Shown: positions 25,667 through 64,000 of the stretch, in pieces
Layout of the letters: each line of letters begins with the position of its first letter
Position numbering within the stretch: the stretch's first letter is position 1
NCBI RefSeq assembly: GCF_030068605.1
Contig: NZ_JASJOU010000003.1
Span: forward strand, 248,001-312,000
DNA: 64,000 nt
Origin: Xanthocytophaga agilis
GTDB lineage: Bacteria > Bacteroidota > Bacteroidia > Cytophagales > 172606-1
Direction: 5' to 3'
The notes under the pieces: model-generated
Database searches by the model: none
What the model was told of the DNA's origin: nothing
What the model saw: only the letters and a program-made list of their open reading frames with translations
Position numbers and translations under genes: made by a program

Positions 25667-26575
25667 ATGCGAGTAAAAGTAGCTGTAGTACAGGAAACCC
25701 CTGTATTTTTTAATCTGGAAGCAACGATTCAGAAAATGGAAAATACAATTGCCGAATATGCCTCCCAGGGTTGCCAGCTACTTGTGTTTCCAGAGTCATT
25801 CATTCCGGGCTACCCTCGAAAGTTTACGTTCGGCTCTACAATTGGACAACGTAGTAATCAGGGAAGGCAACTGTATCAGCAATATTGGGAAAATAGTCTT
25901 GAACTGCCTGGAAAACACTTAGCACAGTTAGAACAAATTGCCAAAACCCATCAGATATTTCTGGTAACAGGTATTACAGAAAGAGATAGTATAAATGGTA
26001 GTTTGTATTGTACCATGATCTATATCTCTCCTAATCAGGGCTATATGGGTAAGCATCGCAAAATCAAGCCTACCGGAGTTGAGCGACTTGTGTGGGCAGA
26101 AGGCCATGGAGCTGACGTACTTACTACTGTACAGACAGAGTTTGGAAAACTGGGCGGTTTGATCTGCTGGGAAAACTATATGCCATTGGCACGTATGGCT
26201 TTATATCAGCAAGGTGTTCAACTCTATATAGCTCCTACCGCAGATGCTCGTGAAACCTGGACAGCAACTATGCAACATGTTGCCTGTGAAGGCAGATGCT
26301 TTGTAATAGGTTGTAACCAGTATTTTCATAAAGATGATTACCCAACAGAATTTCAGGTACAACTTGCAGAAGATGACTCAGTCCTTTGTCGGGGAGGAAG
26401 TGTAATTGTCTCTCCTCAGGGAAAATGTATAGCAGGTCCGCTTTGGGATAAAAAAGGTGTACTGGTAGCAGAGCTGGATATGGATGAAGTTATTCAAAGT
26501 AAACTGGACTTTGATGTAATCGGTCATTATTCACGTCCTGATTTGTTTACATTTACAGTGAAGAATAGCCAATAA
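25667..26575 (+). CDS. Carbon-nitrogen hydrolase (nitrilase family)
   Basis: A 302-residue enzyme with the complete Glu-Lys-Cys triad: Glu43 in FPESFIPGYP, Lys132 in KHRKIKPTGVER and Cys167 in GGLICWENYMPLAR. The FIPGYPR and VERLVWAEGHG segments are those of true nitrilases rather than amidases or N-carbamoylases, so nitrile hydrolysis to acid and ammonia is the likely reaction, perhaps of cyanoalanine or aromatic nitriles. It is cytoplasmic. The gene has a consensus promoter 29 bp upstream. Confidence 0.9.
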   Translation: MRVKVAVVQETPVFFNLEATIQKMENTIAEYASQGCQLLVFPESFIPGYPRKFTFGSTIGQRSNQGRQLYQQYWENSLELPGKHLAQLEQIAKTHQIFLVTGITERDSINGSLYCTMIYISPNQGYMGKHRKIKPTGVERLVWAEGHGADVLTTVQTEFGKLGGLICWENYMPLARMALYQQGVQLYIAPTADARETWTATMQHVACEGRCFVIGCNQYFHKDDYPTEFQVQLAEDDSVLCRGGSVIVSPQGKCIAGPLWDKKGVLVAELDMDEVIQSKLDFDVIGHYSRPDLFTFTVKNSQ

Positions 26576-26638: not shown

Positions 26639-26833
26639 CTGCATATAGTTCGCTGCAAGCAGTGAATTGTGGTGAATTCTATGCAAAAACATTTTTGCGG
26701 TTTATTCAACGCATCGGCAATTTTGCGGTGAACTCTAGGCAAAAGCACTTTTGACCCGAACATACCATAGACTTATCTGCCATCATGTTTTCATGCATTG
26801 AATTCACCGCAAGAGTCATTCTGCATATAGTTC
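26639..26833. repeat. Cluster of short direct and inverted repeats
   Basis: CTGCATATAGTTC occurs at 26639-26651 and again at 26821-26833, bracketing the cluster. Inside, a unit GTGGTGAATTCTATGCAAAAACATTTTTG near 26660 is repeated with changes as GCGGTGAACTCTAGGCAAAAGCACTTTTG near 26726, and an inverted copy, GAATTCACCGCAA, is at about 26800. The first unit and the inverted copy could pair over 13 bp (TTGTGGTGAATTC with GAATTCACCGCAA, one G-U). A TATCTTTG -7 element sits just before it at 26629-26636. The spacer has no gene. It may be a small RNA or a mobile palindromic repeat. Confidence 0.55.
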
Positions 26834-26894
26834 AGTTTAAGCAACCACATGAGCATAATTATGGTCATAAAACTCAAAGTTTAGCTTCCTGTTT

Positions 26895-27386
26895 TTAGAC
26901 TTCTTTTATAAGTATACTGATCTTCCCATTTCCTTCAATGTATATTTTATCAATTTTCGTTAAATCCTCAGTATGGATAGCCTGCCGGATTCCCTGCATA
27001 ATATCTTCTTTTCGAACTAGCGCCTTTTTCATATTCTCTTCTATAAACCGGGCATCCTGATACAAAATAATTTTCCGGCTTTCTATCCATCTACCCAAAC
27101 GGGTATTATGTGCCATAAACCATCCAAAAATCCGGTGCAATAATACCAGTGTCAGACTGGCACAAACTACAGGTATAAAAGGAGAAGCACCAACCACCGC
27201 ACGGCTCAGAATAGCACCCAGCAATATGACCACAATATTATCAACAGGCGTATGAATGGCGAAGGATCTTCTTCCGGATACACGGATTAAGCCATATGCA
27301 ATCAGAAATACAATAATAGCCCGACAACTCATCTGCACTACACTCAGGTCTTTTCCTTCCCCAAATACAGCATAAAACATTTTCAT
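26895..27386 (-). CDS. DUF421 (YetF-type) membrane protein
   Basis: 163 residues from ATG 27386, with an alternative ATG at 27380; the frame extends to a TTG at 27413. Three hydrophobic segments (about residues 20-37, 52-72, 76-95) precede a soluble C-terminal domain with RKIILYQDARFIEENMKKAL. The block GRRSFAIHTPVDNIVVILLG is the hallmark of the DUF421 family, small inner-membrane proteins whose function is unclear. It is a lone gene, separated from the neighbours by the repeat cluster and by a terminator. Confidence 0.87.
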   Translation of the reverse strand: MKMFYAVFGEGKDLSVVQMSCRAIIVFLIAYGLIRVSGRRSFAIHTPVDNIVVILLGAILSRAVVGASPFIPVVCASLTLVLLHRIFGWFMAHNTRLGRWIESRKIILYQDARFIEENMKKALVRKEDIMQGIRQAIHTEDLTKIDKIYIEGNGKISILIKEV

Positions 27387-27502
27387 ACTTGTTGAATCTT
27401 TCGTTACAATCAAAGGGTTTGTTAGCTACCAAAGTGACCGCATGTTTTGTTTATCCTGACTTGTCTCAAAATTTCTTTACTAAAGGAGCAAAATTGGTAG
27501 TA

Positions 27503-62873: not shown

Positions 62874-63749
62874 ATGAAAAAATACGTATTTTTGGCATTC
62901 CCAATTCTCCTTCTTTCGTGTAGTAATGGAGAAGGCAGTCACTTTGAAGGTGGGCTTTCAAAAACTGAAGAACAGACTGCGGATCTTATGATGTTACCTG
63001 CTCCTCCAGAAGGTAATGTTAGTACTGTTAACTTCAAGGAGATGGAAGTCGTATCTGATAATACAGAGCTAGCTGTCATCCAAAAGCAAATTATTAAGAC
63101 TGCACAGGTCCGTATACAGGTAGAAAAGGTAAAAGAGAGCAAAACAATTGTCAGCCAGTTAGTACAAAAAGCAGGCGGCTATCTGGCTACCTCAAACGAA
63201 TCACGAGACAATGCGTCCTATACTGCTACATTTGTCATCCGGGTACCGGCGGCTAAATTTGAAGGACTGCTGGAAGAATTACTTAAGCAGGGCATTTTTG
63301 TAGAGCAGAACAATGTAACGGCTCAGGATGTAACAGAAGAGTTCATAGATATACAAACCCGGCTGAAAACCAAACGGGCACTGGAAACACGTTATCTGGA
63401 GTTATTGAAACAAGCCAAGACTATGAAAGATATTCTTGAACTAGAAAAAGCCCTGCAAACAGTACGTGAAGAAATTGAATCCAAGGAAGGCCGGCTTAAG
63501 TATCTCACCAATCAAGTAGGCTACAGCACAATTAATCTGGATATTTACGAGCAGGTACCTTATGCAGCGGCACCTGAGATTGGCTTCTGGAGTAAACTCT
63601 TTGCGGGTGCAGGCAATGGCTGGGGTATTCTGCTGCAACTGATCATTGGTATAGTTACATTATGGCCTCTGTGGATTATATTGGCTCTTGGAGTGTGGAT
63701 CTCACGTCGCTTGTATATAAAACGTAAACTTCGCAAAGAAGCGCTATAG
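62874..63749 (+). CDS. DUF4349 family lipoprotein
   Basis: 291 residues. A lipoprotein signal ends at Cys16 in LLLSCSNGEG. The mature part has QIIKTAQVRIQVEKV, GGYLATSNESRD, FVIRVPAAKFEGLLEEL and a long coiled coil (about 160-215, rich in Glu/Lys/Leu) with a C-terminal transmembrane helix near residues 250-275 and a basic tail. This matches DUF4349, which is widespread in bacteria and of unknown function, probably an inner-membrane sensor or anchoring protein facing the periplasm. ATG 62874. Confidence 0.85.
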   Translation: MKKYVFLAFPILLLSCSNGEGSHFEGGLSKTEEQTADLMMLPAPPEGNVSTVNFKEMEVVSDNTELAVIQKQIIKTAQVRIQVEKVKESKTIVSQLVQKAGGYLATSNESRDNASYTATFVIRVPAAKFEGLLEELLKQGIFVEQNNVTAQDVTEEFIDIQTRLKTKRALETRYLELLKQAKTMKDILELEKALQTVREEIESKEGRLKYLTNQVGYSTINLDIYEQVPYAAAPEIGFWSKLFAGAGNGWGILLQLIIGIVTLWPLWIILALGVWISRRLYIKRKLRKEAL

Positions 63750-63805
63750 TACAATCCTATTTAAGAAAACCAGAAATAATCTATTTATTAATAGTGTTAT
63801 AAAAT

Positions 63806-63877
63806 TATCAAAGTTCTGATAGTACTGAGAAAATATCAGAATTTTGATATTGTTAAAAAAGTATCAAAGCCCTGATA
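63806..63877. repeat. Three 16-bp palindromes on an exact 28-bp period
   Basis: TATCAAAGTTCTGATA (63806-63821), TATCAGAATTTTGATA (63834-63849) and TATCAAAGCCCTGATA (63862-63877). Each has outer TATCA/TGATA arms; starts are 28 bp apart each time with 12-bp spacers of unrelated sequence. This looks like an operator array for a dimeric regulator. It is just after the DUF4349 stop and before an unseen gene to the right. The 123 bp that follow show no complete gene. Confidence 0.7.
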
Positions 63878-64000
63878 GCCTTCTATGGCCATTTTTCTTA
63901 TTTTAGAAAACAAACCATTGTACCAGAACCAGACTTATACCAAATGGCATGTGGGATTTACTGATTGTACACTTTACCCAAAGAAATATTCAACTCAATG

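Follow-up and report, generated by a model that had tools for sequence, protein, structure and literature searches.

Arrays of 18-bp palindromes in a 28-bp register form a dispersed extragenic family near gene 3' ends in Xanthocytophaga agilis

Results

Array 1 and its neighbouring genes

The window, that is, the whole stretch of 64,000 nucleotides that was analysed, covers C3:248001-312000 of the X. agilis genome (G000; 9.77 Mb, 66 contigs). It was compared with the genome of a relative of the same genus, taken as X. flavus (G001), in which the ortholog of the array 1 locus lies on a contig of 696,258 bases. Near the right end of the window the following features were found:

62874..63749, + strand: ORF, DUF4349 gene upstream of array 1, which begins 55 bp past the gene end
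63777..63794, no strand: degenerate unit of array 1, one 28-bp step upstream of unit 1, two mismatches to the pair pattern
63805..63822, no strand: unit 1 of array 1, an 18-bp dyad, identical in X. flavus
63833..63850, no strand: unit 2 of array 1, two transitions in X. flavus
63861..63878, no strand: unit 3 of array 1, three transitions in X. flavus, one of which turns TATCA into TGTCA
63949..64000, + strand, leaving the window: Crp/Fnr-like regulator gene downstream of array 1 (199 aa; L037:1450-2049)

The preliminary description of this DNA had reported three palindromes spaced by 28 bp with differing spacers, and this was reproduced exactly: TATCA-N6-TGATA occurs three times in the window (63806-63821, 63834-63849 and 63862-63877), with a step of 28 bp and non-identical spacers between the units, whereas 100 shufflings of the window gave a mean of 0.16 and at most two occurrences. 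Scored as a chain of 18-bp units, array 1 reached 33.2 bits, whereas none of 20 Markov resamplings of the window exceeded 19.5. Compared with X. flavus, five of 54 arm positions were changed and none of the 20 positions in the two inter-unit spacers, all changes being transitions; the degenerate unit reads TTAATAG in the window and TTGATAG in X. flavus.

The DUF4349 assignment relies on the single match to this family among 94 flanking proteins, which was assumed to be the product of the upstream gene. The product of the downstream gene matched cNMP_binding with 56.4 bits (cut-off 27.5), its match to HTH_Crp_2 (23.6 bits) lying under the cut-off of 27. In the gap of 70 bp between the end of array 1 and this gene no sigma-70-like match was detected on the strand of the gene, in a scan blind to other promoter types, and a search for terminator-like sites near array 1 gave none. 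To the right of the window, period-33 signals of 0.40 and 0.44 were observed over coding regions (L037:6519-7270).

Size, unit and register of the family

Array 1 is a short member of a dispersed extragenic array family. The exact motif occurs 54 times in the X. agilis genome against 25 times in the backward control, an about two-fold enrichment. The genome-wide search for pairs at 28 bp that had been proposed earlier was far more telling: unit pairs in this register with at most two mismatches numbered 53 against 6 backward in X. agilis and 55 against 6 in X. flavus. A similarity search with one stretch of 391 bp returned 55 and 59 matches, respectively, some of them being the same place matched on both strands or piecewise. 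By matrix scan of the fetched stretches at least 56 arrays with 404 units were found in X. agilis and 48 arrays with 376 units in X. flavus, counts that are not comparable because the fetched places differ between the genomes. The X. agilis arrays contain two to 14 units. In an unselected 464 kb (400 kb of C1 and the window) at least six arrays were present: array 1, C1:289100 (mixed) and C1:368469 as arrays of the first kind or mixed, and array 2 of the window, C1:228618 and C1:278452 as copies of a sister subfamily. Extrapolation from these 464 kb gives, very roughly, a genome total in the order of a hundred arrays. Array density seems uneven across contigs, with eight of the 56 on C6 (413 kb), two on C3 (684 kb) and one on C7 (400 kb).

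Two half-sites make up each 18-bp dyad unit, with TG(A/C) or TATC at the outside and about RAATTY at the centre; the unit is repeated every 28 bp. An A at position 2 is restricted to the TGA/TATC subfamily; its near-invariance in the first matrix arose because that matrix was built from units of this type. Among 348 spacings in X. agilis, 305 were 28 bp, 23 were 27 or 29 bp, three were 56 bp and 17 were 39/40, 66-68 or 94/95 bp, the last group corresponding to 28k+11 give or take one. A scan with free spacing of 345 successive strong units likewise gave 28 (266), 29 (14), 27 (3) and 56-57 (14), besides 39 (4), 65-68 (32), 94-95 (5) and seven other distances. The larger jumps often fall at the identical place in related copies and are not independent events, since many share their position. 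Successive dimers had been suggested to sit on different faces of the helix, which is arithmetically right for a single step; at 10.5 bp per turn, however, three steps (84 bp) amount to 8.0 turns, and 11 bp to about one turn. Copies at different loci share unit order and even spacer letters, so that they descend from one another and their counts are not independent. Of the earlier argument against simple tandem duplication it holds that plain tandem duplication is an inadequate account, but the copies are nonetheless related by descent.

Array 2 and the TGC-type sister subfamily

A second array in the window was detected by an unsupervised period scan (period-28 autocorrelation 0.469) and lies between convergent genes:

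25667..26575, + strand: ORF left of array 2, its end facing the array
26640..26867, no strand: array 2, TGC-type sister subfamily, units at 26640, 26668, 26696, 26724, 26794, 26822 and 26850, a further one at 26753 being doubtful
26895..27413, - strand: ORF right of array 2, its end facing the array

One step of array 2 (26724 to 26794) measures 70 bp, which is not of the form 28k+11. Compared with X. flavus, 15 of 126 arm positions and 15 of 70 spacer positions differ, and one unit seems to have been gained and another lost without disturbing the register. A similarity search for the sister subfamily returned 30 matches in each of the two genomes, some being parts of one place. Set in rows of 28, the copies at 15 X. 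agilis loci share the same modules, three to six in number; a slip of one or two bases occurs in some rows, and the 28-bp step is lost after a few modules. Single units can mix TGC-type and TGA/TATC-type half-sites.

Placement relative to genes

Gene orientation around the arrays was determined with crude longest-ORF gene calls (minimum 270 bases) and compared with that around gaps of 30 bp or more in a 400-kb control, called with the same minimum. Of the 56 arrays 54 could be classified, 28 lying in convergent, 24 in tandem (two of these in one gap on C18) and only two in divergent gaps, against 41 convergent, 163 tandem and 47 divergent control gaps (n = 251). Fisher tests against these 251 gaps, with the two C18 arrays counted once, gave p = 9e-8 for the convergent excess and p = 0.006 for the divergent deficit. 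The contrast persisted when only control gaps of 150 bp or more were counted (12 convergent and 33 divergent of 118). The median distance was 83 bp to 3' ends (n = 80) and 143.5 bp to 5' ends (n = 28). Sister-subfamily loci were arranged similarly (seven convergent, four tandem and no divergent, n = 11), four of the 15 being without a called neighbour. The family is thus placed near gene 3' ends, enriched in convergent gaps and rare in divergent ones.

No common gene type was found beside the arrays: 94 of 106 distinct flanking ORFs were scanned, the 12 omitted being mostly short, and gave 197 Pfam families, the commonest of which occurred in three proteins. The preliminary description had offered the array as an operator for the gene to its right or as a set of iterons. 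The first proposal fails as a general account, as array 1 is one of at least 56 arrays that are enriched in convergent gaps, rare in divergent ones and flanked by no common gene type; the second is contradicted by the same number of dispersed copies with no common neighbouring gene. The refutation test suggested there, when applied to the family as a whole, likewise argues against the operator.

Divergence and turnover between the two species

For the comparison of arms and spacers 30 ortholog pairs with 215 units were available, namely those with a fetched X. flavus stretch, mostly fetched because an array had been found there; units with gaps or more than ten differences were excluded (24 in one direction, 18 in the opposite one). 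Arms differed at 266 of 3870 positions (6.9%) and spacers at 238 of 2147 (11.1%; p = 3e-8). Whichever of the four bases was considered, arms diverged less than spacers, the comparison in the reverse direction agreed, and by array the arms were lower in 24, higher in five and tied in one (n = 30). Positions A2 and T15 differed in 10 of 430 cases against 130 of 1540 for A and T spacer sites. By these figures the arms of the TGA/TATC subfamily are moderately constrained. Hence the earlier notion of conserved arms and variable spacers applies to the family as a whole, whereas at array 1 itself the relation is reversed.

Units were gained, lost and swapped between the species, and in several pairs unit numbers shifted by whole steps. 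For 38 of the 56 X. agilis arrays, an X. flavus stretch matching at least one flank also carries an array, most of these stretches having been fetched for having one. Twelve of the remaining 18 were sought by their flanks, and ten stretches (one of them a weak match) could be compared, seven of which showed a chain at a lower threshold. At the three stretches without an array (opposite G000:C5:426603, C9:196881 and C11:39880) the alignment stops near the array and the left flank is unaligned within about 1 kb; as the left flank also fails to align, they do not represent empty sites and probably reflect rearrangement rather than an empty site. A clean empty site was therefore not seen among the array-less loci examined in X. 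flavus. The upstream edges of six long copies, inspected for the defined ends of an insertion element or MITE, showed no sharp boundary, and an all-against-all blast of masked flanks yielded ten short stretches in common between different array loci. The flanks of G000:C17:111906 (L064) match two separate X. flavus arrays about 45 kb apart, C63:51035 and C63:96606, with an unclean junction. A Y1 transposase (PF01797, RAYT) had no match in the X. agilis genome, while five of 14 control genomes were positive. Vertical inheritance is the best reading of the family.

Signals of DNA and RNA

In 422 units from 54 arrays the half-sites pair at 5.09 of nine positions against 5.06 after shuffling, that is, with no covariation in sum, although single positions deviate: pairing is in excess at two outer ones (z 5.4 and 3.3) and in deficit at two central ones (z -3.0 and -5.3). 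GT mismatches within units (384) are similar in number to AC mismatches (419). The lack of summed pairing together with the similarity of GT and AC therefore points to duplex DNA, and the earlier comparison of the dyad with a binding site of a protein dimer is supported in so far as the halves of a unit appear to be independent overall.

Adjacent units are reverse-complementary above chance (in X. agilis at 10.97 of 18 positions against 10.46, z 6.2; in X. flavus z 5.0), while units at lag 3 are so below chance; the excess is perhaps a trace of array growth, perhaps by inverted copying. Compensatory double changes between the species were found in seven of 2898 site pairs of neighbours and in 7/2700, 4/2214 and 5/1836 at lags 2, 3 and 4. 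In ten stretches strong folds were predicted for either strand, with z between -2.3 and -6.8. RNAalifold, run on one alignment of 15 sister-subfamily copies, found double changes in none of 17 pairs. Searches of Rfam gave nothing at the gathering score for six loci and, for five sister loci, only two sub-threshold matches to a microRNA family, both outside the array.

Taxonomic range

In 56 genomes outside the genus the pair pattern was found 112 times against 81 backward, and singly at most 9 against 5; without one genome (5 against 20) the sum is 107 against 61, a slight excess far below the 53 and 55 against 6 of the two Xanthocytophaga genomes. A third Xanthocytophaga genome, 72% complete, gave 1 against 0. 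Among the 59 genomes to which this pattern was applied, the repeat family is thus confined to X. agilis and X. flavus. A stricter pattern, which is insensitive with four matches in X. agilis, matched these two only among 39 genomes. In a 400-kb sample of G004, a member of the same taxonomic family, neither a chain above 20 bits nor a period-28 match was found, and a plasmid collection searched with one array gave no match. Among the titles and abstract openings returned by searches of an open-access library, none described 28-bp dyad arrays.

Discussion

Fixed registers of tandem dyads are familiar from plasmid centromere and iteron arrays (e.g., sopC of F), which can seed a nucleoprotein complex. 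The Xanthocytophaga arrays share this layout, yet they occur as dozens of dispersed copies with no common partner gene. They also share repeated, dimer-like dyads at fixed spacing with the operator arrays of transcription factors, but are dispersed at gene ends beside no common gene type, and neither placement (two of 54 in divergent gaps) nor flanking proteins (no Pfam family in more than three of 94) showed the feature of a single-gene or regulon operator. The closest likeness is to REP sequences and BIMEs, which are described as palindromic extragenic units that are dispersed and regularly arrayed, for the most part in convergent or co-directional gaps and downstream of genes, with a proposed action via DNA-binding proteins and gyrase (PMC3733652, PMC2817692); one end of a REP unit is said to bear a tag, GTAG or CGTC (PMC3733652). 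Binding of gyrase, IHF or Pol I is a further trait of such elements. The Xanthocytophaga arrays are likewise dispersed, extragenic, palindromic and near gene 3' ends, and 52 of the 54 classified arrays lie in extragenic gaps of the convergent or co-directional type, two of the 56 being unclassified. They differ, however, in the 28-bp register with 11-bp jumps, in mixed half-site types, in unit halves free of overall covariation and GT bias with single positions deviating both ways, and in the lack of a Y1 transposase match in the X. agilis genome, on which ground REP/RAYT membership was rejected. A GTAG or CGTC tag was absent from unit ends in the base counts of the units and likewise in the sister-subfamily rows. 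The family is BIME-like, yet by the features tested it is not BIME.

For its role we give an even chance to the reading that it is a BIME-like extragenic repeat family whose units are dimer sites of one protein that acts at gene 3' ends on the architecture of the chromosome; the protein, its cooperativity and the function of the arrays are what we infer. A single abundant DNA-binding protein would occupy each dyad as a dimer, and dimers on successive dyads would touch along the DNA and build a nucleoprotein stretch, a contact suggested by three steps making eight helical turns and by larger jumps mostly adding one whole turn. Such a stretch, placed most often at convergent gene ends, might then shape chromosome architecture, e.g., as an insulator, a barrier to transcription or a sink for supercoils, and would in this resemble the proposed action of BIMEs rather than a switch of a single promoter. 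Evidence to the contrary comes from the arm changes at array 1, the moderate constraint, the turnover of units, the common descent of the copies, the single positions within units that deviate from chance pairing, the restriction of A2 to the TGA/TATC subfamily, the 70-bp step of array 2 and the slippage in sister rows; the reverse complementarity of adjacent units also counts against this reading, because the model does not predict it. A bolder version, which we consider unlikely, takes the two sister dyad sets with their interchangeable half-sites as sites of one protein or two paralogues that would polymerise with three dimers per eight turns and mark or insulate gene ends, convergent ones above all, so that the arrays would represent a new class of chromosome element.

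A serious rival, if a somewhat doubtful one, is a selfish or relic repeat, i.e., an old duplicated non-coding element that spread before the split of both species, was tolerated away from promoters and is now functionless. Unit order and spacer letters common to unrelated loci, units that come and go in whole steps, the avoidance of divergent gaps, which harmless insertion predicts, and a constraint that is moderate and reversed at array 1 would all suit such an element. It does not sit well with arms that diverge less than spacers for all four bases or with the retained 28-bp register; moreover, no clean empty site was seen (the three array-less X. flavus loci lacking a left-flank alignment as well), no Y1 transposase was matched, and masked flanks had ten short stretches and no gene type in common. 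Recombination sites, with the arrays as crossover points of a site-specific recombinase, are very improbable. The X. flavus alignment does end at or near the array in several loci, breaks having been viewed at array loci only, but these suggestive loci proved unclean: no clean hybrid array was found, at the C17 locus about 880 bp of additional sequence separate the array from the flank that matches, and in a case on C6 one array lies inside the inverted piece.

That the arrays act as structured RNA, as hairpins or terminators at transcript 3' ends, would agree with their location, the strong folds, the reverse-complementary neighbours and the outer unit positions pairing above chance. We judge it improbable, for arrays of dyads fold well on either strand and covariation tests failed: compensatory changes between neighbours are no commoner than at longer lags, a GT bias is lacking and RNAalifold, Rfam and the search for terminator-like sites near array 1 were negative. 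There is only a slim chance that the array is an operator of the Crp/Fnr-like gene, which begins 70 bp beyond dyads resembling dimer sites, given that the same arrays occur at 56 places mostly away from promoters, that a cNMP_binding domain was found in three of the 94 flanking proteins, and that array 1 shows five arm changes against X. flavus and, in a scan limited to this promoter type, no sigma-70-like match between array and gene; a local effect of array 1 on this gene is possible. Iterons of a replication origin, which the regular tandem dimer sites recall, have a practically negligible chance with at least 56 dispersed copies and no common neighbouring gene. As general explanations, operator and iterons were both rejected in view of the placement at gene ends and the absence of a common flanking gene type.

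The case also advises caution, as a genome-wide survey is needed before palindrome arrays seen in a single window are labelled operators. If the arrays are indeed bound by an architectural or filament-forming protein, they would constitute an extragenic repeat family with a testable geometric rule, 28 bp plus whole turns, and would offer a handle on how bacteria treat convergent gene ends.
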